A stretch of 32,836 bases of DNA, taken from positions 1 to 32,836 of IMG/VR virus record IMGVR_UViG_3300045933_000240; one strand, written 5' to 3'. A program made the translations under genes and the position numbers. Shown piece by piece: positions 4,658-28,818 of the stretch. Each line of letters begins with the position of its first letter. Position 1 is the first letter of the stretch. The stretch is from a virus. The notes below the pieces were generated by a model. It was given only the letters and a program-made list of their open reading frames with translations. It ran no database searches and was not told where the DNA came from.

Positions 4658-4915
4658 TCAATCCTCGATAAGCGCCTCCGAGCCGAGCGACGCCCACTGC
4701 ATCCACAGCCACTCGCGCAGGCGCACGGCCTCGCGGTGGGCCTCGGGCAGGTGGGCGACCTCGAGCGCCTCGGCCAGGCTCTTGGCCAGCTGGTAGGCGC
4801 GCATCAGCTCGTGGCCGACGGTCACGTGTGGACGGTCGGGGGACGGCCGCGCAAGTTCACGCGATTCCGTGGACAGTTTCTGTGGCGCGTGCCCGGCCGC
4901 TGCCGGTATCGTCAT
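4658..4915 (-). CDS. small helical protein, unknown function
   Basis: An 85-residue protein that I do not recognise. The first 30 residues are Pro- and Ser-rich; the rest is a likely helical hairpin (ELMRAYQLAKSLAEALEVAH, then EAHREAVRLREWLWMQW). The ATG at 4915 has GGAGG about eight bases upstream and also overlaps the stop of the preceding short gene as ATGA. There is no membrane segment or metal motif. It lies between the HTH protein and the putative SSB, so a small accessory role in replication is possible but unproven. Confidence 0.7.
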   Translation of the reverse strand: MTIPAAAGHAPQKLSTESRELARPSPDRPHVTVGHELMRAYQLAKSLAEALEVAHLPEAHREAVRLREWLWMQWASLGSEALIED

Positions 4916-5085
4916 GCGAAGGCCTCCGTTCGTTGGTTGTTGCCCTGGTAAGCACGACCATGGTCGGAGGCCTGTTCGTCGACTACAACGGGTTTATGTA
5001 CGACTTCTGTCCACGAACCTTCCACGATCTGTGCGAACGTGGGATAAGTCATGCCGTGGGCCGCGAAGAGCTCGCGCTCGCTCAT
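4912..5085 (-). CDS. 57-residue unknown protein
   Basis: A short open frame bounded by ATGA overlaps on both sides: its ATG at 5085 overlaps the stop of the large HTH gene, and its TGA at 4914-4912 overlaps the ATG of the next gene. The product starts MSERELFAAHGMTYPTF and continues with an acidic and polar C-terminal half. No family is recognised. The first 25 residues (HGMTYPTFAQIVEG) resemble the spacing of a small DNA-binding helix pair, but this is weak. The double coupling is the main evidence that it is translated. Confidence 0.65.
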   Translation of the reverse strand: MSERELFAAHGMTYPTFAQIVEGSWTEVVHKPVVVDEQASDHGRAYQGNNQRTEAFA

Positions 5086-5975: not shown

Positions 5976-6223
5976 TCGGGCGTCCACGTGCCCAGCCCTG
6001 ACCGCGCGTTGACGTCCGCCACGAAGCGGATCGCCTCGCGCGGGTACTCAAAAATCGGACCGAACCATTCGCGCTGGCGGCCGGCGTCACGGCCCCAGAA
6101 GGCCTGGTAGCGGAGACGCCCGGCCTCGTTGGACACGACGGCGATGTGGGCGCGGAGCGGCCGGCCCTGCTCAACCGGCGTGGCCAGCGTCGCCATGACG
6201 TCGCGGATCTCGGCCTGCAGCAT
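5972..6223 (-). CDS. 83-residue unknown early protein
   Basis: The product (MLQAEIRDVMATLATPV at the start, WFGPIFEYPREAIRF near the end) looks like a compact alpha/beta protein of about 83 residues. No family is recognised. It ends as GAGTGA, giving the GTG of the next gene. An in-frame GTG at 6232 lies inside a 23-base tandem duplication and overlaps the second copy of the preceding gene's stop. That GTG may have been the original coupled start. The ATG at 6223 has no good Shine-Dalgarno site, so the start is uncertain by three codons. Confidence 0.7.
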   Translation of the reverse strand: MLQAEIRDVMATLATPVEQGRPLRAHIAVVSNEAGRLRYQAFWGRDAGRQREWFGPIFEYPREAIRFVADVNARSGLGTWTPE

Positions 6224-6269
6224 GCTGTTCACCGCAGCACCAGGACGCTGTTCACCGCAGCACCAGGAC
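6224..6269. repeat. perfect 23-bp tandem duplication at a gene junction
   Basis: Bases 6224-6246 and 6247-6269 are identical (GCTGTTCACCGCAGCACCAG plus GAC on the plus strand). Each copy carries the last codons and TGA of the upstream leftward gene, including its GTGA overlap motif. The duplication therefore creates two copies of a stop/start junction. Confidence 0.95.
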
Positions 6270-6455
6270 GAGGAACACCCACACCACGATTGCCAGGCAG
6301 GTGGCCTCGAGAAGCACGCTGGCCCACGACAGGCGCGGCTGGTCGGCCTCGACCAGGTATGAACCGTCCGGCCAGACCACGAGCTTCCGCTCGGCCGCGC
6401 AGTGCTCGCACGGGTCACCGTGCAGGTGCGCCATGTGACGTTCGGTTGTCCTCAT
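6252..6455 (-). CDS. small zinc-motif membrane protein
   Basis: A 67-residue protein with an N-terminal CEHC motif (residues 16-19) and one hydrophobic C-terminal segment (LLEATCLAIVVWVFLVLVL), so probably a tail-anchored membrane protein with a cytoplasmic metal-binding or redox tip. The ATG at 6455 has AGGAG upstream at good spacing, which favours it over an in-frame ATG at 6512. Its last codons and stop lie in the first copy of a 23-base tandem duplication. No family is recognised. In the early region such a protein could modify host envelope functions, but that is speculation. Confidence 0.75.
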   Translation of the reverse strand: MRTTERHMAHLHGDPCEHCAAERKLVVWPDGSYLVEADQPRLSWASVLLEATCLAIVVWVFLVLVLR

Positions 6456-6634
6456 ACCCCTCTCCTGTTGTCGATCGAGAGCGCACCGCCTGGCGTATCC
6501 GCCGCCCGCCACCCCTCCCAGAGGCTTCGCGCGGCCGTTGCGCTCAGGCGGCTTCTACGACGCTCCTTGGCGGTCGCCTTGACCCATAGCCGCGGCCGCC
6601 AGCGAGCGGCTGGGCTCTCTCTGCGGGCGAACAC
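6452..6634 (-). CDS. possible 60-residue basic protein
   Basis: This frame starts at a GTG (6634) and ends in GTATGA, overlapping the ATG of the next gene as ATGA. The product is basic and Trp-rich (WRPRLWVKATAKERRR, then ARSLWEGWRAADTPGG). Support comes only from the overlap pattern and a plausible composition. There is no clear ribosome site before the GTG. A competing frame at 6785-6555 also begins with an ATGA overlap and looks less protein-like. It is uncertain which, if either, is expressed. Confidence 0.4.
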   Translation of the reverse strand: MFARRESPAARWRPRLWVKATAKERRRSRLSATAARSLWEGWRAADTPGGALSIDNRRGV

Positions 6635-6781
6635 GCAGAACCAAGCGCAGCAGCTCGCTGGGTGCCGTGAAAGAAGGAGTGGCCGCCCGTCCCAGAGCGG
6701 CCACCCTCCGGCTGGCTGGAATGCGAGTGAGTGCGCTAACGCCCGGGTAGGCGTCGAGGCGGCTGGTCGGGCGGAAGCGGG
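6635..6781. other. spacer between early HTH gene and short genes
   Basis: Together with the weak frame to its left, this makes about 330 bases without a confident gene. A leftward frame 6785-6555 (76 codons) overlaps the HTH gene stop as ATGA, but its codon choice is mixed and its product is low in information. I see no strong promoter, hairpin or RNA gene here. Confidence 0.4.
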
Positions 6782-7006
6782 TCATGCCGTCAGCTCCAGG
6801 GCCGGCCGATCCTCGCGGCTTATGCCGAACCGCTCACGCCAGACGCGGATGGTGGACAGAGAAATGTCGGTGCCGACGAGCTTAGAGAACGCATCCGCGA
6901 TCTCCTGATCGGAATGCCGCTTGGCGACGTAGAGCTCCCTCAGCAGCTCCTCGATCTCGCGGCCGGTGCTTTGCTGCACCGCCATCTGCAGTCCGGTCTT
7001 GCGCAT
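6782..7006 (-). CDS. small HTH regulator heading the early operon
   Basis: A 74-residue protein with a helix-turn-helix in its C-terminal half (SDQEIADAFSKL, then SLSTIRVWRERFGI), of the kind that pairs a helix with a recognition helix ending in WxxRFGI. The N-terminal part has REIEELLRELYVAKRHS. It is the first gene behind the leftward promoter. The ATG at 7006 falls about seven bases after the -10 box, so the transcript would be leaderless. A later in-frame ATG at 6985 has no Shine-Dalgarno site. It could control early transcription or act at the origin. The family is common in phages, but its role is not established. Confidence 0.75.
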   Translation of the reverse strand: MRKTGLQMAVQQSTGREIEELLRELYVAKRHSDQEIADAFSKLVGTDISLSTIRVWRERFGISREDRPALELTA

Positions 7007-7042
7007 GTGCGATTTGTACCAATACTTGTGATTGCATGTCAA
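7007..7042 (-). promoter_or_regulatory. sigma-70-type early promoter, probably leaderless
   Basis: On the minus strand a perfect TTGACA (7042-7037) is followed after 18 bases by TACAAA (7018-7013), which matches TATAAT at four positions. The first base after a six-base discriminator is 7006, the A of the HTH gene ATG. A small CCCC/GGGG dyad lies just upstream (7043-7057) and could be an operator. Confidence 0.65.
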
Positions 7043-7143
7043 CCCCTAGATTTGGGGGAATAAGCGAGGCGCGGACCCAAGCGTTGGATAGCGCCCCGCT
7101 TTTGACTGTTCAGCTCGCCCTTGGACTCCGTAGCCTCGCGCTG

Positions 7144-7482
7144 GTGGATGACGACGCGGAAATGCGGCGGAGGTTCGCTTATGCAATCCGAGCGGCGATG
7201 GCGGCCAAGGACTGGAAGGTGCCCGACCTGGCGCGCGCACTCGGCCGGGACCCGGGCACCGTCGATCGGTGGGCCAACGGCAGGAGCGTGCCCAACCTGT
7301 TCCAGGTCAAGCAGATCGCGGCCGTTCTCGGGGTCAAGCCTGAATTCATCTACGACCCGCCGCCAGTCCCTGACTACCCGCTCAGCGAGTACCTGGTACG
7401 CCAGGCGACGGAGCAGGGGATGGCTCATGGAGTGGCGGAGGATCGTCGACGCCGGCGTCGCGCAGGCGGCGCAGGGTCCTGA
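7144..7482 (+). CDS. XRE-family (Cro/CI-like) HTH repressor candidate
   Basis: The only regulator that reads rightward. The 112-residue product contains a classic XRE helix-turn-helix (FAYAIRAAMAAKDWKVPDLA, then DPGTVDRWANGRSVPN, then AAVLGV) followed by a short basic C-terminus. It faces the early leftward promoter and so is the natural candidate for an immunity or early repressor. I place the start at the GTG at 7144 because codon use upstream is not coding-like. TAGCCT at 7131-7136 fits the TAnnnT -10 element of actinobacteria seven bases before that GTG, which would again be leaderless. The frame could extend to an ATG at 7036, and an ATG at 7162 is also possible. Confidence 0.75.
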   Translation: MDDDAEMRRRFAYAIRAAMAAKDWKVPDLARALGRDPGTVDRWANGRSVPNLFQVKQIAAVLGVKPEFIYDPPPVPDYPLSEYLVRQATEQGMAHGVAEDRRRRRRAGGAGS

Positions 7483-7588
7483 CGGTCAGCCGCGCCACCG
7501 TGGCGCGGTGCTGCTCGAGGATGGCCTGGACGGTGGAGTCGGCCTGGGCACGCACGACGGCATCACCTTGTTGTGTCCGCCCGCTCAT
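7382..7588 (-). CDS. possible short leftward gene opposing the repressor
   Basis: A 68-codon frame on the minus strand. From about the tenth codon nearly every third base is G or C, and the product has a plausible amphipathic helix (STVQAILEQHRATVARLTVR). Its last 100 bases overlap the 3' end of the repressor gene on the other strand. No Shine-Dalgarno site is seen before the ATG; an inverted repeat lies just upstream instead. It could be an antisense-oriented small protein or chance. Confidence 0.3.
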   Translation of the reverse strand: MSGRTQQGDAVVRAQADSTVQAILEQHRATVARLTVRTLRRLRDAGVDDPPPLHEPSPAPSPGVPGTR

Positions 7589-7591
7589 TCA

Positions 7592-7612
7592 GTACCGGAG
7601 GGCGCTCGGTAC
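7592..7612. repeat. inverted repeat, possible operator or terminator
   Basis: GTACCG (7592-7597) and CGGTAC (7607-7612) are perfect inverted copies separated by nine bases. The site lies between the repressor and the zinc-ribbon membrane gene. There is no T-run directly after it, so a protein-binding site is as likely as a terminator. Apart from this and the DnaA-like box, I see nothing defined in 7483-7707. Confidence 0.4.
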
Positions 7613-7678
7613 GCCACTTTTGGGCGGCCCAACGTCTTGCGGCACCGTGCCAACTGGCTGTCACGGCCAAGAGGGGAG

Positions 7679-7687
7679 TTATCCACA
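7679..7687 (+). promoter_or_regulatory. perfect DnaA-box sequence
   Basis: TTATCCACA matches the nine-base consensus DnaA box exactly. It lies 20 bases before the rightward membrane gene. No second box or AT-rich unwinding element was noticed nearby, so an origin role is unproven and a chance match is possible. Confidence 0.35.
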
Positions 7688-7707
7688 GAATGAGGAAGGC
7701 CTAGCGA

Positions 7708-7980
7708 ATGGACGACCTGGTCCTGGTCTACGTCTTCTGGATCGTGGTTGGGGCGATCCTCGGCGCGGTCGTGAATGACAGCAAGGGCCGATCACCCGGC
7801 GTGGGGGCAGTGGTCGGTGGCTTACTCGGCCTCATCGGCGTGCTCATCCTGGCTGTCCAGTCGAACCTCAAGAATCAACCCCAACCGGCGCCACAGCTCT
7901 GGCCGTGCCCGAACTGCCACAGTCACATTCCGTCGTCGAGCCAGTTCTGTCCGGTCTGCGGCTTCCGGCTGGTGAACTAG
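7708..7980 (+). CDS. zinc-ribbon membrane protein
   Basis: A 90-residue protein with two hydrophobic segments (about residues 5-22 and 33-50, the second glycine-rich) and a C-terminal zinc ribbon (CPNCHSHIPSSSQFCPVCG, residues 67-85). Proteins of this build occur in bacteria as small envelope proteins of unknown function. It is the second gene of the rightward island, after the repressor candidate, a position where temperate phages often keep genes expressed in the lysogen, such as superinfection exclusion. That role is inference. GAGGAAGG precedes the ATG. The TAG stop shares the palindrome CTAG with the stop of the convergent tail gene. Confidence 0.8.
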   Translation: MDDLVLVYVFWIVVGAILGAVVNDSKGRSPGVGAVVGGLLGLIGVLILAVQSNLKNQPQPAPQLWPCPNCHSHIPSSSQFCPVCGFRLVN

Positions 7981-8933
7981 GCGATCCGCCGGTAGCGCAG
8001 GGTCGAGCCGGCCACGACTCGGAGGTCGTTGGCGTTGCCGACGTTCTGGCACCAGCGCAGCCGGAACGTGCCACCGGCGGCCGCGCCGTAGCCGCCTATG
8101 AAGCGCCAGATGAACGGGCTTGTTGCGCTGTTGATCACGTGGGCGGTGAGGCCGGTCTGGACGCTGCCCTGGACGATGTCGCCGGTCGCCGCAACGATGA
8201 GGTGCCAGAACCCTCGAAAGGTCCCGTCCTCGCCTATCTCGAACTTGAAGTCGGTCGAGTTGTTACCGCCGGGGTGGTCGATGATCAGCGTCATGTCCCA
8301 CTCGTACTGAGCGCCGCTGACGCCGACGAACTGTAGCTCGTCGTCGTCCTGCAGCACGGTCGACGACGCAACACTCTCTGTCGTCTGCTTGACGATGTAG
8401 GTGTAGTCCGTCGAGATGACCGTCGTGCCGCCGCCGCCGCCCCTGGCGCCGAGCAGCTGCACGCTGGCGTAAGTCGCGCCGGTCGAGATGTCCTGGCTGT
8501 CGATGATGAGCCCGAACGCACCGGGCCCGGTGGCGGCGTTGCTGTACATCGTGCCGTCGGTGGCGGCCGCGAAGGCGTACTCGCCGCGGGTCACGGCATC
8601 CTCGATCAGCACGCGGGCGAGGCCGGCGATCTGCACGGCGACCTCGTAGCCGTCGGGCGCGTCGTCCTCGACCAGCTCCGTCCCGTCGTAGTAGCCGACG
8701 ACGCTGCCCAGGACCGTTGGGCTGTCCTTGGCGGCGACCGCCCTGACCCGTCCCGAGTTGGCCGCGAAGGTGAACTCGACGAGCGTGTACAGGTCGAGGT
8801 CGGCGCCGGTCGTGTTGAACGCCTTGATCACCGTCCGCTGCTCGCCGTAGGTCGAGCCGGTGCCGCCGTGCGCGGGCTGCAGGACGTTCGCCACCTGCCG
8901 CAGCAGGTCGGTCACCATCGAGTACAGGCTCAT
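7977..8933 (-). CDS. distal tail or receptor-binding structural protein
   Basis: The last late gene, 318 residues. The first half holds repeated beta-rich sequence of the kind seen in virion decoration proteins (VLGSVVGYYDG, YAFAAATDGTMYSNA). A Gly-rich linker (ARGGGGGTTV) then leads to a C-terminal beta-domain that ends in TFRLRWCQNV and LRYRRIA, typical of phage fibre or tail-tip knobs. The start overlaps the stop of the large tail protein upstream (ATGA). It probably forms part of the tail tip and contacts the host. No enzymatic motif is visible. The family is not certain. Confidence 0.7.
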   Translation of the reverse strand: MSLYSMVTDLLRQVANVLQPAHGGTGSTYGEQRTVIKAFNTTGADLDLYTLVEFTFAANSGRVRAVAAKDSPTVLGSVVGYYDGTELVEDDAPDGYEVAVQIAGLARVLIEDAVTRGEYAFAAATDGTMYSNAATGPGAFGLIIDSQDISTGATYASVQLLGARGGGGGTTVISTDYTYIVKQTTESVASSTVLQDDDELQFVGVSGAQYEWDMTLIIDHPGGNNSTDFKFEIGEDGTFRGFWHLIVAATGDIVQGSVQTGLTAHVINSATSPFIWRFIGGYGAAAGGTFRLRWCQNVGNANDLRVVAGSTLRYRRIA

Positions 8934-10960
8934 CCGCCCGTCTCCGCCCTGTAGAACACCTGGCCGGCCATGTCGGCCGGCGGTGGCTGGGTCAGGGTCG
9001 CTTCGAGCGCGCCGCTGTCGACGGTGTACTCACCCATCGTCAGGATCGCGTTGCCGACGCGCAGCTCGGGCAGGCCGTTACCGTTCCACAACGGCAGGCT
9101 GAACGTGTCGTTCGTGCCGTCAACGGCGCCGATGGCGGGCAGCCAGGGCGACAGGCCCGAGCCCGAGAACGTGATCGGCACGGCGCTGACGATGCTCGAA
9201 GCGTTCGTGTCGTGGCCGGTGTTGCCGTAGCCCCACGGCTTGTTGCCGGCGTCGTTGCAGATGAGCAGGCCCGAGCTGATGTTCCAGTTCGGCGCGAGCA
9301 CGATCCAGTTGTAGCCGTCGGCCACGTCGATCAACAGGCTCGACGGGATCACGACCTCACCGCCGCTGGCGCCGACCGTGCCGACGGGCGTGTACTGGTT
9401 CTGGTCGGTGACCTCGCTGCCGGAGCTGTCGGCACCGGTATGGATGCCGACAATGACCGTGTCGGCGCCGTCGAGGAAGCCGCCCGGGCTCTCGGTGTAG
9501 CCGCTGCCGCTGGTCAGGAACGGTGCCACGGTGACTCTGACGCCCATCACGTCGCCGTCGGACAGGTCGATGGTGAAGCGGTGCCAGACGGCCCGGCTTT
9601 CGAGACCGGCAACGGCGCCGGTGCCGACGCCGCAGTCGGTATAGGAGTGGCTGATGTTGCCCTCGGGCGCCCGGCTGACGACGCCGTCGTTGGCGCCGGC
9701 CAGGCTGTTCAGGTCGAAGTCGGGGGCGATGTTCTCCCACAGCCCGGCCGCCGGTCCGAACTGGCCCGAGCCAGTCTCCTGGCTCATCTGGTAGCGCGAC
9801 AACGTGATCGCGCTGCCGTCGGTCGTCGTGGCCGTGTCGACGTCATCGCCGGGGCGTGAATCGTTGAAGCTCGTGATCTTGACGTCGGCGGCGAACTCGA
9901 GGTTGAGCCGGTAGGCCTCACGGCTGACGCCCTGGGTTGTCTCGGCCAACTGCAGCACGCAGCGCGTGATACGGAACCAGGTGAAGGCCGAGTAGCCGAG
10001 GTGCGGCACCTTGATCTGGATGCGCATGCCTGCCTGGATCTCGCCGGCGAACTGGGCGGGCAGCTCGGTCGAGCAGGTGAAGCGGACGGTCTCGTTCGAT
10101 GCGGCGACCAGGTACTTGTCGGCCTTGGCCGTCGCCTTGGCCGAGCTCTTGACGGTCGAGTCGTCGACGACCGTCTCGCGCCGGCGGAAGTCGGACGAGG
10201 TCGTGACGCCGGCGTCGGTATCGGTGCGCGTGACGTGGCCGCCGTCGTAGTTGTAGACGACCTTCGACCAGATCTCGCTCGGGTCCTGCTTGCGCTCGGC
10301 GCCGTCGAGGATCCAGAACACCTCGGCCTCGTCGACGTCGGCCCTTACTGTCGACAGCTTGAGGGTGCTCGACAGCGACGTCCCGGTGTGTTTGTCGTAG
10401 TACAGCTTGGCGCCAGCGCCGTAGTCGTAGATGAAGTAGTTCTTCTGGGCCGCCTCGGCGCAGTCGGACAGGACGCGCCGCGCGCCGCCCGCCTCGCGCC
10501 GGTAGTCGCTGGCGTCGAGGTTGACGGTGTTGGTGTTGGGTACGACGCCGGCGGCCACGCCGATGGCAGCGAAGTCCGACGTGGAGAGCAGCCAGCTGAC
10601 GCGCGCGTAGTCGGTCTCGGCCGGCCGCTTGGCGTCCGAGCTCTCGAGCACGACCGATTCGAGCAGCGCGTTGAGGTCGAGCAGCGTCACGTCCCACGTG
10701 CGGTCGGTGTCCTGCTTCAGACGTCCGCGGTTGATCGTGCGCTCGCCGACCATGCCGGTGAAGAGGCGCGGCGTGTCGGCCCGCGCATCCTCGACCGTCA
10801 CGTCTTTCCACGCGGGCACGTCGGACAGCGAGTCATCTTCGCGGTCGAAGCCGCCGCTGCCGATCTCGCCGCCGTCGGCCACCTGCTCGAGCGAGATCGT
10901 CTCGTCGCGCACGCCGAGCAGCTCGTCGCCGTCGACGACGATTTCCAGTCGGCTGGGCAT
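8930..10960 (-). CDS. large tail-tip protein
   Basis: A 676-residue protein directly after the tape measure, where siphophages encode the distal tail and baseplate-hub proteins. The N-terminal 350 residues contain segments such as VTVEDARADTPRLFTGMVGE and TWDVTLLDLNALLES, which fit a tail-hub (Tal/gp27-like) beta-barrel. The C-terminal part is Ser/Gly-rich and beta-like, with a carbohydrate-binding feel (YNWIVLAPNWNISSG). Its ATG begins directly after the TAG of the tape measure gene. It probably closes the tail tube and carries receptor-binding domains. The hub assignment rests on position and fold impression, not on a signature motif. Confidence 0.75.
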   Translation of the reverse strand: MPSRLEIVVDGDELLGVRDETISLEQVADGGEIGSGGFDREDDSLSDVPAWKDVTVEDARADTPRLFTGMVGERTINRGRLKQDTDRTWDVTLLDLNALLESVVLESSDAKRPAETDYARVSWLLSTSDFAAIGVAAGVVPNTNTVNLDASDYRREAGGARRVLSDCAEAAQKNYFIYDYGAGAKLYYDKHTGTSLSSTLKLSTVRADVDEAEVFWILDGAERKQDPSEIWSKVVYNYDGGHVTRTDTDAGVTTSSDFRRRETVVDDSTVKSSAKATAKADKYLVAASNETVRFTCSTELPAQFAGEIQAGMRIQIKVPHLGYSAFTWFRITRCVLQLAETTQGVSREAYRLNLEFAADVKITSFNDSRPGDDVDTATTTDGSAITLSRYQMSQETGSGQFGPAAGLWENIAPDFDLNSLAGANDGVVSRAPEGNISHSYTDCGVGTGAVAGLESRAVWHRFTIDLSDGDVMGVRVTVAPFLTSGSGYTESPGGFLDGADTVIVGIHTGADSSGSEVTDQNQYTPVGTVGASGGEVVIPSSLLIDVADGYNWIVLAPNWNISSGLLICNDAGNKPWGYGNTGHDTNASSIVSAVPITFSGSGLSPWLPAIGAVDGTNDTFSLPLWNGNGLPELRVGNAILTMGEYTVDSGALEATLTQPPPADMAGQVFYRAETGG

Positions 10961-13036
10961 CTAGGTCACGCGCGGGCGGTTGATCGACCAGAACTTCTCG
11001 GTCGCCTGGGCGACCGCCCGGCCCGAGACCGAGAACGTCGACTTGACCGACACCGGCACCGTGATCGTCGGCGTCCAGTCTTTGTTCTTGATCTTGGTCG
11101 TGTTGGCCGCCGTCTTGCGCGCCTCCTCCTTGAGGGCGCGCAGCTGCTCGACCGAGATGCCGAGCTTTGCGGCGATCTTCTCCTCGTTGAAGTTGAAGGT
11201 CCGGTTCAGGTGGCGCAGTTCGCCGGTCGTGATGCCCAGCTCGGATGCAAGGCTGGAGCGGAACGACTCGCGCAGCGCCTTCAGCGTGCCGATCGTGATG
11301 CCCAGCTTCGAGGCGATCTCGCGCTTCATGGCGGCCGTGCCGGCCTTGAAGCCGGCCGCGAGGGCATCGGACTTGGCCGACGCCCAGCGCTCGATGAAGC
11401 TCGAAATCCTCGAAGGCAGGCTGGTGATGTCGCCCGTCATCTGGCCGAGCTGGTTGGCGGCCTGCTGGTGGAAACGCTGCAGCTCCTGCTTCTGCGCTTC
11501 CGTCTGCTGCGTCTGGTTGCGCATGTAGTCGTTGAACCCGGGGCCCGGTTCCACAACCGTCGGACCCCTGAGCGTGTCGGTCGCCTTGGGCCCGCCGGGG
11601 AAGGGCGTTGTCCCACCGAATATCTGCGGGAACTGCTTCTCGAACCAGTCGCGGAGTGGCTGCATCGCGGTCAGGACCGTCGAGCCCTGCCAGAGATGCT
11701 CCCAACCCGCCTTCCATTCGGCCAGCGTCTTGGCGTTGAGCGTCTCCTGGGCGCCCTGGATATAGGTTGGCAGGCGGCCCAGCTGATCAACGGCAAGGAA
11801 GATGGTGCCCGCCAATAGTCCGCCTGCCACCACCCCGCCAGCGATGCCACCTGCGCCTTTGCCTGCGGCGCCCGGGATGCTGCCCGCCCCGTTGACCGTC
11901 GCGGCATTGATGTTGACGACGGCAGCCGTCATGCCGAGCACGCCCTTGATCAGGCCCTTGCCGAGCTCGCTGACGATGCCGCCCAGGGCGCCGCCGGTCA
12001 GCTTGTTCAGCCCCCAGCCGGTCAGCACCGCCGTCTTGAGCCAGTCGGGCATGCCGTTGAAGATGTTCCACGCCGCCTGGGCACCCTGCCCCATCAGGCT
12101 GAAGGCATTGGCGATCGTGTCCCACGGGATGCTCTTGGCCGCCTCGAAGGCCGACGACAGCAGCCCGGCCCCTTTCTGGCCGAAGTCCTTTATCGCCTGG
12201 ATCACCTTCGGATCGCGCAGCTTCTCGTTGAGCCAGCGTGTGACCTCCTGAATGATCGGCAGGAAGCCGACGGCGAGTGCCTGCTGCGCGCCCTCGATCG
12301 CGTCCTGGAAGCGGCGCATGTCGGCGCCGAAGCCGGTCCCGGCAGCCTCGCCCGCCTTGCCGAACTCGGTCTCGAGCTCCTTCAGGATGATCGTCTGCGC
12401 GCCGGCCACGTCGCCGGCCTCGACCATCGCCTTGATCTGTTCCTTCTGTTGCTCGGTGAAGCTGACGCCGACCTTCGACAGCGCGGTCACGCCCTTGATC
12501 GGGTCGTTCAGCGCCTTGCCCAGCTGGATGGCCGTCGCCTGCAGGTCGACCGCTGACGCGTCGCCGCCGGCCATCGCCACGCCCATGTTGACCATTGCCT
12601 TGGTCGCGTCGGGGAAGACGTCCTTGCCGATGTTGGTGAACGTCAGCAGCATGTTCTCGCCGCTCTGGACGACCTTATCGTCGACGGTCGTCAGGTCCTC
12701 CAGCGAGGAGGCCAGGTCCTGCACCTGCTTGGCCGTGACGCCGGCCTTGCCGCCGGTCGACTCGATGACGGCCGCCGTCTGCTGGTTGGCGCGCTCGAGC
12801 TCTTCGAGCGACCGGATGCCGGCGAAGACGTTGGCCGCCACGAAGCCGGCGCCGATGACGCCGATGCGGGCGACGTTGGCGGCGGCGGTTTGCACGCCCT
12901 GCTTGGCCAGCCCGCCGATCCTGTTGAAGCCGCCCTCCAGCTTGCCCAGCGACGTGAGCGCCTTGCCGACGCCGGGCGTGAACTGGTCCTTCAGCTCGAG
13001 GCTGGCGATCAGGGCGGCGGTGTCAGCGGCGGCCAC
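10961..13036 (-). CDS. tape measure protein
   Basis: A 691-residue protein that fits a siphophage tape measure by length, position and sequence. The N-terminal region has typical helical sequence (SLEELERANQQTAAVIESTGG, residues about 76-95) and the common TMP block with FTNIGKDVFPDATKAM and DLQATAIQLGKALNDP. A hydrophobic Gly/Ala-rich stretch lies in the middle (about 370-410). The C-terminal part has heptad-like helices (LGITIGTLKALRE, then ELGITTGELRHLN and KLGISVEQLRALKE), three related short repeats. At roughly 1.5 angstrom per residue the tail would be near 100 nm. The start is GTG with GGAGG seven bases upstream, overlapping the frameshifted chaperone frame. Confidence 0.92.
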   Translation of the reverse strand: MAAADTAALIASLELKDQFTPGVGKALTSLGKLEGGFNRIGGLAKQGVQTAAANVARIGVIGAGFVAANVFAGIRSLEELERANQQTAAVIESTGGKAGVTAKQVQDLASSLEDLTTVDDKVVQSGENMLLTFTNIGKDVFPDATKAMVNMGVAMAGGDASAVDLQATAIQLGKALNDPIKGVTALSKVGVSFTEQQKEQIKAMVEAGDVAGAQTIILKELETEFGKAGEAAGTGFGADMRRFQDAIEGAQQALAVGFLPIIQEVTRWLNEKLRDPKVIQAIKDFGQKGAGLLSSAFEAAKSIPWDTIANAFSLMGQGAQAAWNIFNGMPDWLKTAVLTGWGLNKLTGGALGGIVSELGKGLIKGVLGMTAAVVNINAATVNGAGSIPGAAGKGAGGIAGGVVAGGLLAGTIFLAVDQLGRLPTYIQGAQETLNAKTLAEWKAGWEHLWQGSTVLTAMQPLRDWFEKQFPQIFGGTTPFPGGPKATDTLRGPTVVEPGPGFNDYMRNQTQQTEAQKQELQRFHQQAANQLGQMTGDITSLPSRISSFIERWASAKSDALAAGFKAGTAAMKREIASKLGITIGTLKALRESFRSSLASELGITTGELRHLNRTFNFNEEKIAAKLGISVEQLRALKEEARKTAANTTKIKNKDWTPTITVPVSVKSTFSVSGRAVAQATEKFWSINRPRVT

Positions 13037-21091: not shown

Positions 21092-21249
21092 CGTTTGACC
21101 TCGAGCAGCAGCATGCCGGTCGCGAAACATACGACGCCGGCGGTGGCCACGCCGAGTACGGGCGCCAGCATCGCGGTCGCGGCCACGAACAGGCCGGCGC
21201 CGATGGCGCTCAGCGCAATGGCGAGCTGCTGGCGACGAGCCTTGGTCAC
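21088..21249 (-). CDS. 53-residue membrane protein between terminase and portal
   Basis: A short frame with a GTG start at 21249 that overlaps the terminase stop (GTGA) and an end that overlaps the portal start (ATGA). After a basic N-terminus (TKARRQQ) come two hydrophobic stretches (LAIALSAIGAGLFVAATAML and LGVATAGVVCFATGMLLLEV), consistent with a small membrane hairpin. A holin-like or injection-related function is possible, but the location beside the portal is not usual for a holin. No family is recognised. Confidence 0.72.
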   Translation of the reverse strand: MTKARRQQLAIALSAIGAGLFVAATAMLAPVLGVATAGVVCFATGMLLLEVKR

Positions 21250-22919
21250 TGGACGAACACGAACGGCTCGGAGTTGTCGACCTCGACGTTCAGCGCGCCA
21301 TCGGTGATGGCGTCGTTGCGCGCCTCCCAGCTGAGCGTCGCCGCGACGGCCGTGTCGATCTTCTCGCCATCGGATGGCTTCTCGATCGTGTAGAGCTCTC
21401 CGCCGTCATCGCGGTAGCCGGTCGGGTGCATGACCGCGTTGCCGACGTGCTCGCTGAAGAGCGCGCACAGCGCATCGGTCTCCGGGCAGTGCCAGACGGC
21501 GCCGGTGTTCATGGCCTCGCGCCAGGCCCGGATGGCGTAGGCCATCTGGCGCGGCCGGCCGGTCAGCCACTCGACGACACGGTCCTTGCCGTAGCGGCCC
21601 GCCCATACCGCGACCCACTCGACCCAGAACGGCGGATCCGCATACATGCGCCAGACGTCGAACCGCTCGAAGGCCTGGTCGACCGCCGCGTCGACGAGTT
21701 CGCCCGGGATCTGGTGGCCCTTGTAGTCACCGGGTCGCCAGATGCCGAGCGGCCACTGATAGCCGGATGCGACCTCGGTGGCCACCAGCGCCGTGTGGTC
21801 GCGTGACCGGCTGCCATCGAAGCCGAGAACGACCAGGGCGCCTTTCGGCACCTTGTGCGGCTTCTTGGCGGACAGCCCATTCCAGCGGCCGAGCTCGAAC
21901 GCGCGGCCGGCGCCTTCCTCGAGCTTGTTGCCGAAGAAGCGCGCAGCTTCCGCCGGCGCCTTGGTGATCATGTCGGCCGCCTCGGATTCGATGCTCTCGA
22001 GCTCGACGTGACCGCCGTTCTCGCGCAGCAGGTCGGGCTCGTAGACGGTGCGCAGGATCTTGCGCCGCTCGCGCTTGTCCGAGAACGACAGGTTCGCCGG
22101 CGGCTGGACGAAGTAGGTCCAGACGTTCGAGTGCTCGCCCGCCTTGCGCATCTTCGCCGCCTGCTCGAAGTCGACCTGCGCGACCGAATGCAGGGCCGGG
22201 TCCCAGGCGTTGGTCGTCTCGAGCGCGCGGCCGCCCATGCCGGCCAGGTTGCGGTACTGGGTCCGGGCGACCTTGGACATGCCGTTGCGATCGGTGTACA
22301 GGCCAGTCTCGCCCTGCACGACGTAGGTCGTCCGCTGGCCGAGGCGGGCCGGCGCCGAGCTGGTGACCGTTTCGATCTTGCCGCCGCGCGGTAGCCGGAT
22401 GAAGTCCTCGCCCGTCTTGGGGACCAGGTCGGCGAGGCGGCCGAGCTCGATCATCGGCCGCAGTGCGTCGTAGGTGTTGTCCGTCGAGCCTTCCGACACG
22501 CCGGTGATCTGGATGAGCGGCGTCGGCCAGGGCATGCCCTTGGGCTCGCCCTCGTCGTATGGATACTCCCAGCCGCAGCGACAGCCGAAATCAGCGCAGA
22601 TGTAGCCCTCGTCGCGCCCCGCCCAGCCGGCGAACAGAGCAGGGCCGGTGCCCTCGAGGCAGATCAGCGCGGCCGCCAGCGGATCCTTGCCGATCTTCTG
22701 CGGCCCCACAACCAGCCCGCGCAGCTGGTGGACGAACGCGGTCCGGAGCATCGGCCGCTCGGGTTCGAACGACGCGCTCAGCCTGACCTGGTACATCGCC
22801 ACGGTCGTGGCGCGCTGGTAGCCGTAGAGCTTTAGCGGCCGCCCCCGCAGAAAGCCATCGGGCACGACGCAGTGCTGCTGGATCCAGAAGGGCACGACGC
22901 CCATCACCCGGCCGTCCAT
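21246..22919 (-). CDS. terL: terminase large subunit
   Basis: The 557-residue packaging motor. The ATPase half has a deviant Walker A at 71-79 (VGPQKIGKD, with Asp after the Lys instead of Ser or Thr) and a Walker B at about 199-204 (YVVQGE, E204). A Cys-containing stretch CADFGCRCG lies at 108-116. The nuclease half shows GFDGSRSRDHT (366-376, metal-binding D368), YADPPFW and a final KIDTAVAATLSW block, as in terminase_1/HK97-type enzymes. It translocates DNA into the prohead and cuts it. The ATG at 22919 shares one base with the small subunit stop (TGATG). A longer upstream frame is a shadow of that gene. Confidence 0.92.
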   Translation of the reverse strand: MDGRVMGVVPFWIQQHCVVPDGFLRGRPLKLYGYQRATTVAMYQVRLSASFEPERPMLRTAFVHQLRGLVVGPQKIGKDPLAAALICLEGTGPALFAGWAGRDEGYICADFGCRCGWEYPYDEGEPKGMPWPTPLIQITGVSEGSTDNTYDALRPMIELGRLADLVPKTGEDFIRLPRGGKIETVTSSAPARLGQRTTYVVQGETGLYTDRNGMSKVARTQYRNLAGMGGRALETTNAWDPALHSVAQVDFEQAAKMRKAGEHSNVWTYFVQPPANLSFSDKRERRKILRTVYEPDLLRENGGHVELESIESEAADMITKAPAEAARFFGNKLEEGAGRAFELGRWNGLSAKKPHKVPKGALVVLGFDGSRSRDHTALVATEVASGYQWPLGIWRPGDYKGHQIPGELVDAAVDQAFERFDVWRMYADPPFWVEWVAVWAGRYGKDRVVEWLTGRPRQMAYAIRAWREAMNTGAVWHCPETDALCALFSEHVGNAVMHPTGYRDDGGELYTIEKPSDGEKIDTAVAATLSWEARNDAITDGALNVEVDNSEPFVFVQ

Positions 22920-23422
22920 CAGTTGACGCCCATCCGGCTCTTCTCGGCAGCCCAGTCGACCATCACGCCCTTGACGGGCACCTCGGCGAGCTCCTCGTCG
23001 GGCGCCGTCTCTGCCGCGGCCGCCATCGCGAACTGGCGGGCGAGAGCCTCGATCGCCGGCGCGGATCCCTCGATGACGTAGCGCGCTCGAGCAAGCGAAT
23101 CGGCGGTCAGCAGCAGCGAGTTCTGCTGGTCGCGAACCAGCTTGCGCAGCGAGCTTGCGCCCTTCTGCTCCCAGACGCGCCGGCCCTCGGCCTCGACAAG
23201 CGTCCGGACATGCAGCGCCACCTCGATCTCGGACTGGTTGCGCTCCCAGATCAGGGCCTGCGGCTTCTGCCAGTAGTCGGCCCACAGCGTGAGCTCGCGC
23301 CTGGTCGGCCGGACCAGCGGCCACTTGGGCAGTGCTCCCTCGCGCCTCGACGGCAGGACGGTCCAGCTGGCGGCGTCCCGCTGCCGGCGGAGCGCGTCGA
23401 GCTCAGGCGCCGGGCCCGGCAT
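22919..23422 (-). CDS. terS: terminase small subunit
   Basis: A 167-residue protein directly before the large subunit. It has the P27-like pattern of small subunits: an N-terminal region with LPSRREGALPKWPL and RRELTLWADYWQKPQALIWERN, a helical core (EVALHVRTLVEAEG) and LRKLVRDQQNSLLLTADSLARARYVIEG, which are conserved in many actinophage-type terminases. It recognises the packaging site and loads the large subunit. Start and stop are coupled to the neighbours as TGATG on both sides. The order HNH, small subunit, large subunit, portal is the standard one. Confidence 0.85.
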   Translation of the reverse strand: MPGPAPELDALRRQRDAASWTVLPSRREGALPKWPLVRPTRRELTLWADYWQKPQALIWERNQSEIEVALHVRTLVEAEGRRVWEQKGASSLRKLVRDQQNSLLLTADSLARARYVIEGSAPAIEALARQFAMAAAAETAPDEELAEVPVKGVMVDWAAEKSRMGVN

Positions 23423-23754
23423 CAGGCGTTCCTCGAGTTCGTAAGCGCGGCGCCGCGAGCGTAGTTACACTCGCCGCAACTCGCGACCAGGCCAGCCAGC
23501 GTGCCTCCCTGTGAGTGCGGCTTCGCGTAGTCGGCCGTCGTGGCTCGTCGACCACAACCCCAGTAACACAGCGGATCGCCAGCGAGCAGCTCGCGCCGGC
23601 GACGGTCGTAGTCGGTGCCGTGGCCGCGCAGCTGGCGCGGGATCCCGCAATGGTTCCGCGTGGAAACCTTCGAGTCCTGGGCGCAGTAGCGGCCGACGGT
23701 CAGCCGCGGACAGCCCGGCCTGGCGCACACGTGGAGCTTGCGCATGTCGATCAT
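23422..23754 (-). CDS. HNH-like protein beside terminase, with altered active site
   Basis: A 110-residue HNH-fold protein in the position of the packaging-associated HNH nuclease. It has the usual RGHGTDYDRRRRELLAGDP lead-in (43-61), zinc ligands C63, C67, C93 and C96, and the terminal CGECNYARG (93-101) with N97. The usual ADH motif, whose His is the general base, reads ADY (74-76) here, so the catalytic His is replaced by Tyr. The nearby H80 might substitute, or the protein may be structural. An extra N-terminal Cys cluster (C10, C15, C24) may bind zinc. The ATG overlaps the upstream stop. Confidence 0.85.
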   Translation of the reverse strand: MIDMRKLHVCARPGCPRLTVGRYCAQDSKVSTRNHCGIPRQLRGHGTDYDRRRRELLAGDPLCYWGCGRRATTADYAKPHSQGGTLAGLVASCGECNYARGAALTNSRNA

Positions 23755-24047
23755 GGCGCCGGCACCATGCGATCGACGACGACGAAGCGGTTCTGCTCGA
23801 TCACCGAATCGCCGTTCCAGCGATACCAGTGGATGCCCGACTCGTCGGGCGTGTAGTCGGCGTAATAGAGGCCGGTGCTGCTGGTCTGCACATCGTCCGT
23901 CAGGTCGACGGTCGTGCCCGACGGCGTCCTCAGCGTCAGCTCGACGTCGACCGGGTCGAACAGCGTGCCCGCCGGCTTCGTCTTGAAGCCGTCGCCGTTC
24001 GTGATACGCACGACCTCGCCGACATCGATGTGGTCGGTGCTACTCAT
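23751..24047 (-). CDS. small Ig-like beta-sandwich protein
   Basis: A 98-residue protein that looks like a single Ig-like or related beta-sandwich domain: VGEVVRITNGDGF, VDVELTLRTPSGTTVDLT, STGLYYADYTPDESGIHWYRW, a pattern common to phage decoration and fibre domains. The ATG at 24047 overlaps the end of the repeat-protein gene by eight bases. A longer frame to 24209 is a shadow of that gene. It probably sits on the virion or on the repeat fibre. No enzyme motif is seen. Confidence 0.7.
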   Translation of the reverse strand: MSSTDHIDVGEVVRITNGDGFKTKPAGTLFDPVDVELTLRTPSGTTVDLTDDVQTSSTGLYYADYTPDESGIHWYRWNGDSVIEQNRFVVVDRMVPAP

Positions 24048-25827
24048 TGCCCGTACCCACGTGGCTGGCACTGTCGGCATCGCCGTCGACGGTGGCCAAG
24101 GTCGCGGCATCGGCGCCGACCGACTTCCGCGCGGCCGCCTCACCACCGACACTCGACATGGCAAATGCGTCCCCGCCGACAGTTGCCAGCGTGGAGTGCG
24201 CCGCCCCAACTGTGCCGCGGCGCCCGAACCGAACGCGACCTGCGAGGCCTGATAGCAGGGCGTACAGCGTGACGAAAACGAACTTGACGAGACCCGAACT
24301 CGTCGACAGCGTCGCCTCGAGCGCCTTGAGCACCAGCTTGACCAGCGTGGCGGTCAGCGTCAGCGCGCCGGCGAAGCTCAGGGTGACGCGCTTGCTCAGG
24401 TCGCCCGTGAGTCCGAGCGAGCCGCCCAGGTCGAGCGTGTTGCCGCTGGTGATGTGGGCAGTCAGGTCGCCGGCGAGGTCGAGCAGGCCCGCCAGGTAGA
24501 TCTGGGCCTGTTTGCGGACCGCGCCGGCGGTCGCCAACGTTGCGAGCAGGACCTTGCTGGTCAGTCGTATCAGTGAGCCCGAAGTGGCCAACGTGCCGGT
24601 CAGCGTCTTCGCGACTTGGGCCCGCACGGCGCCGGCACTGGTCAACGCTCCCGAGAGCCGGGTCGTAGCCGCCTGCCGGATAGCGCCGGCGGTAGTCAGT
24701 GTCGCTGCCTGGTTCGTCTGCGCGCGCTTGATCAACGAGCCGACTGTCGTCAGGGTTCCGCTCAGCACCTTGTTGACTCGATCGGTGATGGCACCTGATG
24801 TCGTAAGCGTTCCGACGAGGAACCGCGAGGCTACGAGGCGCAGGGATCCGGAGCTCCCCAGACTGCCGGCGAGGCGCTTGAGCACCAGCTGCGTAATAGC
24901 GCCGGTGTCGCTCAACGTCCCACCCAGCGCCAAGGCGAATCGGATGGTAAGGGCGCCCGTCGTTGTGAGCGTCCCGCTCAGGCGCTTCTGGGCTTGATTG
25001 GCAACCGCGCCGGCCGTGCTGAGCGTACCGGTGAACAACCGGCTCACGAGCTTGCTCAGAGAGCCTGCCGTTGTCAGCGAGCCGCTCAGCACCTGCTCGA
25101 CCAGGTTCATGATCGAGCCGCTCGAGGTGAGCGTGCCGGTCAACGTGAGCACCGCGACCTTGACGTTGGTCACGGCGCTCGACGTCGCCAGCGTGCCAAC
25201 CAGGTAGATCAGCGCGTTCTTGACCAGCGTCCCTGCGCTGGCAAGGGTCCCGGCGAGGAAGGTTTCCACGAGGAACGCCAGGCTGCCTGTGCTCGCTTGC
25301 GAGCCCGCCAGTCGTTTCTGCCCTTGGTTGACGGTGGCGCCGGCGCTGCTGAATGTCCCTGCAACCGGCTTGTTCGCCTGGTTGGCATCAGCACCTGACA
25401 TCGACAGCGTCCCGGCCACCGACTGGCTGACGAACTTCACCAGCAAGCCGGCAGTCGTCAGTGTGGCCAGCAGGACTTTGAGAACCAGGAAGACGATGGT
25501 TGCGGAGGTCGTGAGAGTGCCGGCGAGGAGCTTCTTGGCCAGCAGCACCAGCGAGCCGGTCGAGGTCAGCGTTCCGGCCAGTGGCTTGTTGCCCTGGTTG
25601 CGCGGCGTCCCCGAGCTGCTCAGCGTCCCGGTCAGGAACTTGTTGACTCGCTTGACCAGTGCGCCAGCTGAGGCCAGAGTGCCCGCGAGTACCTGGTTGT
25701 CGCGCTTGACCAGCAGTCCCGAACTCGCGAGCGTTCCGTCGAGGCTGAGCGTGTACAGGATCGACGACGAGCGCCCACCGGGCAACAGCCTCGACTGGGC
25801 AGGGAATGAGCGACCAAAGATAGGCAT
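24040..25827 (-). CDS. giant tandem-repeat protein (18-residue repeats)
   Basis: A 595-residue protein made almost wholly of tandem 18-residue repeats with consensus like xLxGTLTTxGSLVKxxxK, about 28 units between residues 28 and 537. The regular GTL, S/T, G and L positions and the basic or polar end of each unit suggest a beta-solenoid or a long repetitive fibre. The final 58 residues switch to a second repeat of about 10 residues (xxVGGDAxxx, six units). There is no signal peptide. It lies between the propeller protein and the terminase genes, so a fibre or virion surface role is likely. I do not know a named family for certain. The upstream TAG is three bases before its ATG. Confidence 0.85.
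   Translation of the reverse strand: MPIFGRSFPAQSRLLPGGRSSSILYTLSLDGTLASSGLLVKRDNQVLAGTLASAGALVKRVNKFLTGTLSSSGTPRNQGNKPLAGTLTSTGSLVLLAKKLLAGTLTTSATIVFLVLKVLLATLTTAGLLVKFVSQSVAGTLSMSGADANQANKPVAGTFSSAGATVNQGQKRLAGSQASTGSLAFLVETFLAGTLASAGTLVKNALIYLVGTLATSSAVTNVKVAVLTLTGTLTSSGSIMNLVEQVLSGSLTTAGSLSKLVSRLFTGTLSTAGAVANQAQKRLSGTLTTTGALTIRFALALGGTLSDTGAITQLVLKRLAGSLGSSGSLRLVASRFLVGTLTTSGAITDRVNKVLSGTLTTVGSLIKRAQTNQAATLTTAGAIRQAATTRLSGALTSAGAVRAQVAKTLTGTLATSGSLIRLTSKVLLATLATAGAVRKQAQIYLAGLLDLAGDLTAHITSGNTLDLGGSLGLTGDLSKRVTLSFAGALTLTATLVKLVLKALEATLSTSSGLVKFVFVTLYALLSGLAGRVRFGRRGTVGAAHSTLATVGGDAFAMSSVGGEAAARKSVGADAATLATVDGDADSASHVGTGNE
24217..25746 (-). repeat. array of about 28 coding 18-residue repeats
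   Basis: The coding region for residues 28-537 of the repeat protein divides into about 28 units of 54 bases, with a few units of 57 to 63 bases. Neighbouring units differ at many bases, so the repeat is kept at the protein level. Confidence 0.9.
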
Positions 25828-25830
25828 CGA

Positions 25831-27306
25831 CTACCAGCGACTGGCGCGCACGACGGCTTGAAGGACTGCCAACGGGGCCATAAAGCCCCCGGGACGGTCG
25901 GTTGTGGCGGCGGTATAGGTCACGATGAAGTCGAAGGTGTCGATGAACCACGTGATCGTGTCCGCGCTCATCGAGGTCGTGCGGACAAAGTTGAACTCGA
26001 CACGCGCGTCATCCCACTGAGCCTTAGAAGCGCCGGTGTTGACGTAGCCAAAGCTGACGGCCGCGTTGTTGCCGTAGGTGGTACGGAAGGCGTTGTCGGC
26101 GCCGACGCTCTGATAGGTGCCGCCTGAATTCGCAGCTGCCAGCACGACGCCCGCGCTTGTGCGCACGCGCACGTTCCAGGTCATACCGTCATCGCTGCGG
26201 CCGGACTGCTTATGTCGGAGCTGGAACGTGGCGGCAGTCACCGGCGCTATGGCGCTCGATGCGGTGATCGTGGCCCCGGAGGCGCCCACGCCAACCCACG
26301 TCGCGCCGTAGACAACGGAATTCAGCCCTGTGCTGCCCTGGGCGTTGCTTGTCCAGGCGCCGGTCGGGTCGGTGGCGCGGTAGTAAAGCGTTCCAGCAAA
26401 TCCAAGCGCGACCCAGAAACCATTGCCATAAGCGACGCCATAGAAGCCGCTGGTGCCCTGGGCGTTGCTTGTCCAGGCGCCGGTCGGGTCGGTGGCGTAG
26501 TAGAGACGGTTGGCGTTCGTGCCCTTTTTGCCGACCGCCACCCAATAGCCGTTGCCATACGCGACTGACGCGAACAAATCCTGCGCATTGCTGGTCCACG
26601 CGCCGGTGGGGTCGGTGGCTTTGTAATACAGGTTTGATGTGCTGCCGGTGGCATCGCCGACCGCCACCCAATAGCCGTTGCCATACGCGACTGACGCGAA
26701 CGCGACAGAGCCCTGCGCATTGCTGGTCCACGCGCCGGTGGGGTCAGTGGCGCGGTAGCGCAGAACACCAGAACTGCCGACGGCCACCCAATAGCCGTTG
26801 CCATACGCGACACTGTTGAATTGGGTGCCCCCCTGAGTGTTGCTCGTCCATGCGCCGGTGGGGTCGGTCGTATACAGAACGGCCCCATTTGCACCGACCG
26901 CGACCCAGTATGTGCCGTCGAAGGCGACCCCTCTGAGCGTCTCTGAACCCTGTGGGTTGCTCGTCCAGCTGAGGCCGTCGGAGCTCCAATAAAGCGCACC
27001 AGACGCTCCCACGGCGACATATTTCCCGTTACCGAACGCAACAGCATTCAGATCCGCCGCACCGTTGGTGGTGGACAGCCAGGACGCCAGGCTCGGGTCC
27101 TGCGGCGTATAGGCATCGACCAGATCGCCCGGCGAGTTGCTCAGTCCGAAAGACAGATCGGCCTCGCCCGTCCGCTTGACGCCAGTGCTGTCGGCGGCGG
27201 CTATCCCTTCGTCGACCTCGCCAAAGATGGGCGTGCCCGCACCGGTCTCCTTGGCCCACGTGCCGATCGAGACATCCGCGTCGGCAGCTGGTGTCCACGT
27301 GGCCAC
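25831..27306 (-). CDS. seven-bladed beta-propeller fibre or receptor-binding protein
   Basis: A 491-residue protein. Residues about 85-352 hold seven repeats of about 40 residues, each like xxSVAYGNGYWVAVGxxG, then an LYY strand and ATDPTGAWTSNAQ, which fits a seven-bladed beta-propeller. The N-terminal 84 residues (IFGEVDEGIAAADS, LSFGLS) and C-terminal 140 (FQLRHKQSGRSDDG, WNVRVRTSAGVVLAA) look like two halves of one beta-sandwich, so the propeller seems inserted in it. A virion receptor-binding or glycan-binding role is likely. I start it at the GTG at 27306, two bases after the Cys-rich gene stop. The frame stays open much further upstream, but that part overlaps the Cys-rich gene and looks like its shadow. 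Confidence 0.82.
   Translation of the reverse strand: MATWTPAADADVSIGTWAKETGAGTPIFGEVDEGIAAADSTGVKRTGEADLSFGLSNSPGDLVDAYTPQDPSLASWLSTTNGAADLNAVAFGNGKYVAVGASGALYWSSDGLSWTSNPQGSETLRGVAFDGTYWVAVGANGAVLYTTDPTGAWTSNTQGGTQFNSVAYGNGYWVAVGSSGVLRYRATDPTGAWTSNAQGSVAFASVAYGNGYWVAVGDATGSTSNLYYKATDPTGAWTSNAQDLFASVAYGNGYWVAVGKKGTNANRLYYATDPTGAWTSNAQGTSGFYGVAYGNGFWVALGFAGTLYYRATDPTGAWTSNAQGSTGLNSVVYGATWVGVGASGATITASSAIAPVTAATFQLRHKQSGRSDDGMTWNVRVRTSAGVVLAAANSGGTYQSVGADNAFRTTYGNNAAVSFGYVNTGASKAQWDDARVEFNFVRTTSMSADTITWFIDTFDFIVTYTAATTDRPGGFMAPLAVLQAVVRASRW
26531..26701. repeat. 45-bp perfect direct repeat within propeller blades
   Basis: Bases 26531-26575 and 26657-26701 are identical, 126 bases (42 codons, one blade) apart. 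A third, slightly altered copy lies near 26775-26812. The flanking linker sequence coding TDPTGAWTSN is also nearly identical between blades, pointing to recent duplication. Confidence 0.9.
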
Positions 27307-27307
27307 A

Positions 27308-27679
27308 TCAGGCCCCGGTGTAGGCGGTGGTGGTCCGGTCGGGACCGGTGTCGGGCAGTTGCCCTGCCTCTGCTGACCCGGCGGGCATTTCTGTGAAGCA
27401 GCATTGGAGCTGTCCTTCGCCGGCCCGATTGAAGCCCGCGAACTCGCCGCAGTCCACGACTCCGTTCCGGTCCCATGCTGGCCGGACGATGGCGAGATAG
27501 CGAGGGTCGGCGTGAACAGCGTCCCAAGAGCCAAGCTCGCGGCGAAGGCCGCAGACAAAATGGCGGCCGGGAACCGTGTCGATCTCAAGGAACGGGCACT
27601 CCTTTCCCTCGATGTAGCAGCAGTGATCGGCGCAGTTGCCATGGCACGCGCGACCCGCAACAACCGTGCCGTCTAGCAC
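27308..27679 (-). CDS. cysteine-rich protein, unknown
   Basis: A 123-residue protein starting at a GTG (27679) that overlaps the stop of the upstream gene (GTGCTAG). It is rich in Cys: CHGNCADHCC (12-21), KECPF, HFVCGLRRELGSWDAVH, VVDCGEF and LQCCF. The conserved-looking core and the paired Cys spacing suggest a small zinc-binding or disulfide-stabilised domain. The gene is easily missed because the propeller frame stays open across it. It sits among fibre genes. I do not recognise the family, and the C-terminal 25 residues are less ordered (AGSAEAGQLPDTG). Confidence 0.68.
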   Translation of the reverse strand: MLDGTVVAGRACHGNCADHCCYIEGKECPFLEIDTVPGRHFVCGLRRELGSWDAVHADPRYLAIVRPAWDRNGVVDCGEFAGFNRAGEGQLQCCFTEMPAGSAEAGQLPDTGPDRTTTAYTGA

Positions 27680-28137: not shown

Positions 28138-28818
28138 TCAGCCGCCGGCGCTTGCGGTCATGTCGTAGGTCGTCTGCAATCCGTCGCCGTTGGCGCCGAC
28201 CAGGTTGATCGCGCTGAACTTCGAGCGGTCCCACAGCGTGCCCGCGGAGCTGGCCGAGAACAGGCCATGCTCGGTCACAGCGGGCGTACCCGAGTCGAGC
28301 GTGTTCGTGCCGACGGAGCGGTAGATATTGGCCGAGGCGCCCTCGGTCTGGCTGCCTGTCGCGCGGGTGCTGTCAGGGTTGTACTCGGTGGTGAGCTCGG
28401 TGCCCAGGGCAGTGTCACCGTTGGCCTCGGCGCCGGTACCGGTGCCGATGCCGTGGTACTTGAAGTTCTCGAGCTCGGTCAGGTTCTGGAAGGCATCGAC
28501 GAGGAAGTTGACACCGGCGGTCGTGATGACCTTGCGGCTGACTACGCCGTAGTCCTCGACGACCAGCTCCTCGCGCGGGATGAGGCCCTGCTGGAACAGG
28601 CCGAGGCCGCGGACGACCCGCGCCCGCAGCGCGGACTCGAACACGACCGACCGAGCAAGGATGTCGCGCAGCTCGTCGGCCAGCTCGGCCGGCAGGAGCG
28701 GGATGGCCCGGCTGATAACCAGGCCGAGCGCCGTCTTCGGATCGCCGGCCGCCTGGCGGACGATGCGCGTCTCGCGGGACGGGCGCAGGACTTCGGGAAC
28801 GGCGAGCGCCAGGCTCAC
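28138..28818 (-). CDS. tail-fibre-like protein
   Basis: A 226-residue protein with a helical N-terminal third (AELADELRDILARSVVFESA) and a beta-rich rest: GVVSRKVITTAGVNFLVDAF, KYHGIGTGTGAEANGDTALG, TEYNPDSTRATGSQ, AVTEHGLFSASSAGTLWDR. The HGIGTGTGAE block and the TExGLF block are characteristic of a widespread group of phage fibre or virion proteins. It starts with a GTG overlapping the stop of the coiled-coil gene (GTGA). It probably forms part of an adhesion fibre. The exact family is not named here. Confidence 0.72.
   Translation of the reverse strand: MSLALAVPEVLRPSRETRIVRQAAGDPKTALGLVISRAIPLLPAELADELRDILARSVVFESALRARVVRGLGLFQQGLIPREELVVEDYGVVSRKVITTAGVNFLVDAFQNLTELENFKYHGIGTGTGAEANGDTALGTELTTEYNPDSTRATGSQTEGASANIYRSVGTNTLDSGTPAVTEHGLFSASSAGTLWDRSKFSAINLVGANGDGLQTTYDMTASAGG

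Follow-up and report, generated by a model that had tools for sequence, protein, structure and literature searches.

In phage phi29, the gene of the head fibre gp8.5 lies near the capsid gene, and canonical tail fibres are attached through their N-terminus. The neck passage structure (NPS) of lactococcal siphophages (936 group, TP901-1) is an adhesion fibre at the neck in which a shaft is combined with a BppU-like beta-sandwich and a carbohydrate-binding module (CBM) (PMC6669499, PMC4493119). Here we describe a gene for a long repeat protein in a virus record, IMGVR_UViG_3300045933_000240, whose entire 32,836 bases were analysed (the window). The repeat constitutes an undescribed family, and its general role is ordinary: as judged from sequence and gene context, the protein is probably a sugar-binding fibre shaft on the particle, perhaps on the head or neck.

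The repeat protein, which has 595 aa and begins at an ATG, is encoded on the minus strand at positions 24040–25827, and the GC content of its three codon positions (0.60/0.56/0.83) shows the pattern of a real gene in this frame. The protein begins with a short basic arm (residues 1–30, MPIFGRSFPAQSRLLPGGRSSSILYTLSLD; 25738–25827, minus strand), and similar short, Arg-rich starts were found in about 12 relatives that carry no N-terminal domain. The arm is followed by the repeat array (residues 31–540; 24208–25737, minus strand), which lies within 9 bases of the range given in an earlier note on this DNA (24217–25746), and by a C-terminal tail (24043–24207, minus strand) that contains a second repeat of 10 residues (STLATVGGDA / FAMSSVGGEA / AARKSVGADA / ATLATVDGDA; best lag 10, z 4.6). 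C-terminal tails with a comparable repeat of 9–11 residues, or a doubled one of 17–18, occur in many relatives. The same note had seen few other features in the protein, a description that is not supported as worded, given the basic N-terminus, the C-terminal repeat and the N-terminal lectin domains of relatives.

The surrounding genes named below lie on the same strand. The ATG of the repeat-protein gene is located 3 nt past the stop of the upstream gene, while its own stop overlaps by 8 nt with the start of a gene (23751–24047, minus strand) for an Ig/BppU-like beta-sandwich protein of 98 aa. This small protein showed a weak match to PHROG 442 (head-tail adaptor, E 0.0014) and belongs to a single-linkage cluster of 10 loci. 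The gene of the terminase large subunit (21246–23324, minus strand) serves as the landmark directly downstream. The upstream gene (25831–27663, minus strand) has no family match; by inspection it encodes propeller-like YGNGYWVAVG repeats, and we regard its product as a candidate for a separate sugar-binding partner of the repeat protein. The blades are encoded by a repeat that is tandem at the DNA level as well (26455–26779, 126–132 bp). Further upstream lies a conserved neighbour (28138–28818, minus strand; PHROG 5417, function unknown) with weak tail-fibre similarity; of 85 relatives, about 44 have a homologue of it close to the array gene. This phage family is marked by the motifs DYGVVxxRVxTTAGV...FHxxGTG...ITEHGLF...DRS; its member in the window had no match among PDB sequences, nor did tblastn return any in phages. 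The placement of the array in a fibre region, as proposed earlier, is right as far as structural genes and adhesin-like neighbours are concerned, but loosely worded for a gene directly upstream of the terminase. A protein outside the virion, be it secreted, displayed on infected cells or acting as a host-binding decoy, would be consistent with the lack of an annotated homologue of known role. Since a gap of 3 nt and an overlap of 8 nt couple the gene tightly to structural genes, and terminase or neck genes adjoin it in many contigs, we consider this very improbable.

The array comprises 28 tandem units, in agreement with the figure of about 28 in the earlier note; 26 of them are 18 residues long, with one of 20 (residues 211–230) and one of 22 (residues 447–468). 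A regular chain was scored for 27 units, the final one being degenerate. Identity at lag 18 amounted to 0.307, whereas 10,000 shuffles averaged 0.104 with an sd of 0.012 and reached 0.161 at most. The consensus of the window units reads G-T-L-[TSA]-[TS]-[SAT]-G-[AS]-L-x-[KN]-x-[VA]-x-K-x-L-A. The observation that the units differ in DNA and still keep their pattern also held: mean identity between units was 49% for DNA and 35% for protein, and Tandem Repeats Finder did not flag the array. Since the units have diverged in their DNA and adjacent ones resemble each other no more (36%) than distant ones do (35%), the array must be old. Codon positions 1 and 2 agreed between units in 54% of cases, position 3 in 39%. 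The array is under purifying selection at the protein level, in line with the earlier proposal, with a dN/dS of ~0.3 (0.032/0.107) between two close relatives.

That the repeat had not been characterised before was borne out by our searches. No family in Pfam, NCBIfam, PHROGs or the PDB sequences covers it: the window protein had no Pfam or NCBIfam match and a best PHROGs E-value of 0.29, a profile search of the PDB with the repeat gave no match, and 40 relatives compared with Pfam, NCBIfam and PHROGs yielded only scattered weak matches with unrelated names. The open-access papers that we searched contained no account of this repeat. A tblastn search of 50,697 phage records with the window protein returned nothing that covers the protein, even at E 10, and no relative was recovered by a peptide-pattern search. 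Because tblastn filters out low-complexity sequence and has probably hidden the repeat in this way, we searched with degenerate DNA patterns. The patterns for two and for three units each retrieved 78 stretches from IMG/VR, and these were scored with an HMM built from the window's own units, loci above 45 bits being accepted. The HMM confirmed 87 loci, or 89 ORFs when the window gene and the additional array of L102 are included, placing the repeat in at least 87 other IMG/VR phage contigs. Of the real loci, 68 were recovered with one pattern and 59 with the other, 40 of them with both, which corresponds to about 100 loci in IMG/VR at the same stringency, a lower guide because the patterns are not independent. 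L040, with its six-residue FTGTLG repeats, and loci below 45 bits were dropped as chance matches or other repeats. In 84,980 bacterial and archaeal genomes, the three-unit pattern hit 15 stretches, none of which was convincing by HMM; they were not counted, their HMM matches being weak or absent (best E 5e-8, L088, 31.6 bits).

Some arrays are unusual in number or size. L102 carries two separate 18-residue-repeat genes on the same contig (255–2375 and 4613–5743). L069 (3437–7948, ORF of 1504 aa) and L023 (3–3182, ORF of 1060+ aa) have very long arrays with some 30 units, many of them of 20 residues. In L028 (2–2263), three units are duplicated together as a 54-residue block inside the array, suggesting a recent expansion, unlike the window. 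The sister contigs L015 and L054 are 91–98% identical in their array DNA, but L054 has a shorter array (by ~42 residues) and carries an extra N-terminal domain.

Across the relatives, the unit follows the consensus GTLT-[SPF]-[AS]-GAL-[VT]-[KR]-Q-[TA]-x-[KR]-A-L-A. Spacings of 18 residues (953) and 20 residues (240) dominated, while just 28 measured 17, 19 or 21, and the lengths 18, 20, 22 and 24 together greatly outnumbered the odd ones. In the 18-residue units, K/R occupied position 11 in 83% and position 15 in 78% of cases, and D/E made up 1.2% of the residues. All 68 distinct arrays had a net positive charge, with about +1.7 per unit. Such a charge would also suit a DNA- or membrane-binding protein whose cationic repeats are helical or partly disordered, such as a capsid protein that is internal or ejected. 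Averaged over the units, the hydrophobic moment of positions 8–18 likewise peaked near 90–100 degrees, as in a helix, and not at 160–180, raising the option of a continuous helix or a helix-strand solenoid. However, Gly or Pro occurs at unit positions 12–16 in 29% of units, which argues against a helix there, and we placed the helical option second to a beta fold because of these positions and the length parity. The even length steps, the Gly/Pro positions and a KQGNK turn in a podovirus version of the repeat are independent signs that point toward beta structure. With unit lengths and Gly/Leu positions strictly kept, lectins fused to the N-terminus and a beta-sandwich partner encoded downstream, we judge a disordered or helical cationic protein to be clearly unlikely.

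Structure prediction gave beta models. AlphaFold2 folded the full protein, supplied with 39 relatives, into beta strands with a pLDDT of 70–87 over approximately residues 190–420 and a pTM of 0.52, and a second model, of a relative with 7 others, showed two strands and two turns per unit at a pLDDT of ~50. AlphaFold2 is, however, known to produce confident, unrealistic beta-solenoids from random repeat sequences (PMC11795689), so that the models alone do not settle the fold, and this bias also speaks for the helical or disordered alternative. No PDB entry matched the AlphaFold2 model at E ≤ 0.001 in Foldseek. VIA aligned the model to beta-helices, best to 3p4g (Z 21.2, rmsd 3.2 over 266 residues), in a match list that leaves room for other folds. 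Two known solenoid types did not fit the unit. A hexapeptide left-handed beta-helix would carry an aliphatic residue at every sixth position; the unit is hydrophobic at positions 3 and 9, yet 78% of units have K/R at position 15, and lag-6 identity in the window was 0.16 against 0.31 at lag 18. An RTX-like calcium-bound beta-helix would require regular Asp in Gly-rich turns, while acidic residues account for only 1.2%. A beta repeat fold is the best available model, and to this extent the idea of a long solenoid or fibre spike stood; as for the spike, a fibre of the head or neck is at least as likely as one of the tail, as follows from the position of the gene.

To place the array genes, we used profiles of TerL, portal, capsid and neck proteins. 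The repeat gene lies no more than about 5 kb upstream of the terminase in the window and in about 10 further records. In about 9 relatives it follows the capsid gene or directly precedes neck genes, beside or between capsid and neck genes, and in 5–7 it is distant from both the terminase and the capsid/neck genes; these counts cover the placeable records, since many records lack one or more markers. The last group, with the gene far downstream of terminase/neck genes in a frequent place for tail fibres, is what would be expected if the protein were the shaft of a common type of tail fibre or spike, mounted on the baseplate or the tip of the tail, a reading close to the fibre spike of the earlier note. 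N-terminal lectins and adhesin-like neighbours agree with such a shaft, and on a circular map the genes upstream of the terminase would form the end of the late operon. In the window, however, the tape measure gene (10961–13036) and the tail genes (8930–10960) lie beyond the terminase, portal and capsid genes, thus on the opposite side of the head genes from the repeat gene, which is found neither in nor after the tail-tip genes; relatives vary in this respect. Moreover, the relatives with the gene beside or between capsid and neck genes argue against a tail fibre, as does the presence of lectins at the very end by which canonical tail fibres are attached. We therefore regard a tail-tip shaft as rather unlikely. 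The position beside neck genes in about 9 relatives is only suggestive of a neck location on the virion, but since the gene is found by terminase or neck genes, we consider a head or neck fibre no less likely than a spike on the tail.

The domains attached to the array fit a fibre shaft. A Laminin_G_3 lectin-like domain was detected in 10 of 32 long N-termini (best E 4e-23), and in the remaining ones Pfam recognised nothing at E 0.001. In the relatives, the array gene is often followed by one for a small Ig- or BppU-like beta-sandwich; in L016, L062 and L046, a domain of this type is joined to a connector-like protein (Phage_connect_1 match in L062, E 0.003). BppU_N was recognised in the downstream genes of three relatives at E 0.02–0.12, under the Pfam cut-off.

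We propose that each 18- or 20-residue unit would contribute two turns and two short beta strands, and that the stacked units would build a stiff rod along which lysine and arginine run in two rows. A sugar-binding module would sit at its N-terminus, as a fusion in many relatives and possibly as the product of the separate upstream propeller gene in the window phage. The C-terminal 10-residue repeats, together with the co-translated Ig/BppU-like protein, may dock the rod onto the particle, with the head or neck a more likely site than the tip of the tail, and the cationic rows could hold the phage loosely to anionic polymers of the cell surface. More generally, it is conceivable, albeit tentative and open to doubt, that many uncultured phages bear undescribed polycationic beta-repeat rods as head or neck adhesion fibres with swappable lectins and a separate BppU/Ig-like dock. 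If true, such rods with exchangeable lectins would represent a second place, besides the tail tip, at which phages meet their hosts.

A diverged version of the repeat is present in one deposited complete genome, that of a podovirus from Manatee Spring (MW202615.1), where an ORF at 4710–7712 encodes a protein of 1000 aa with 18/20-residue repeats (...KQGNKVLSISTSLVPTI...). This ORF lies directly upstream of the terminase, and its version, which reads KVLSISTSLVPTIIKQGNK, differs from ours in lacking the glycines of GTL..G and, by inspection, in having an Ig-like N-terminal region. In the public record, an antisense ORF (5774–7585) over the real plus-strand repeat gene is annotated as 'hypothetical protein' (UOF79353.1). 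As no library names the repeat, such genes read as hypothetical, in this case on the wrong strand; a profile of the 18/20-residue units would annotate them directly.

Among structures, the bacterial antifreeze/adhesin beta-helix 3p4g and other beta-solenoids come closest to the model, in which one unit per coil is plausible. However, 3p4g shares 8% identity and no sequence relation with the repeat, which lacks the Asp/Gly calcium motif, and the Foldseek E-value was 1.4; because of the AlphaFold2 bias, the match may mean a generic solenoid only. The phi29 head fibre resembles the relatives with the array downstream of the capsid gene in having its gene by the capsid gene, but shows no sequence similarity in the PDB profile search and another repeat organisation. 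With the NPS, the cassette shares the same three kinds of parts. The NPS fibre is one protein in the order BppU-like domain, helical coiled coil and CBM; here, the beta-sandwich is encoded by a separate, next gene with sub-threshold BppU_N similarity, the shaft is built of 18-residue units, and the lectin stands either at the N-terminus or apart from the protein. As the repeat protein has neither a BppU-like domain (no Pfam match to BppU_N in the window protein) nor a coiled coil, it does not belong to the NPS/BppU group. With this membership set aside, the parts read as lectin, rod and dock, and we put a fibre shaft first, a tail fibre second and a helical or disordered cationic protein third. 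That the repeat protein forms the shaft of a virion surface fibre, with the head or neck slightly favoured, seems to us evenly balanced. In layout, the NPS is the nearest described system.
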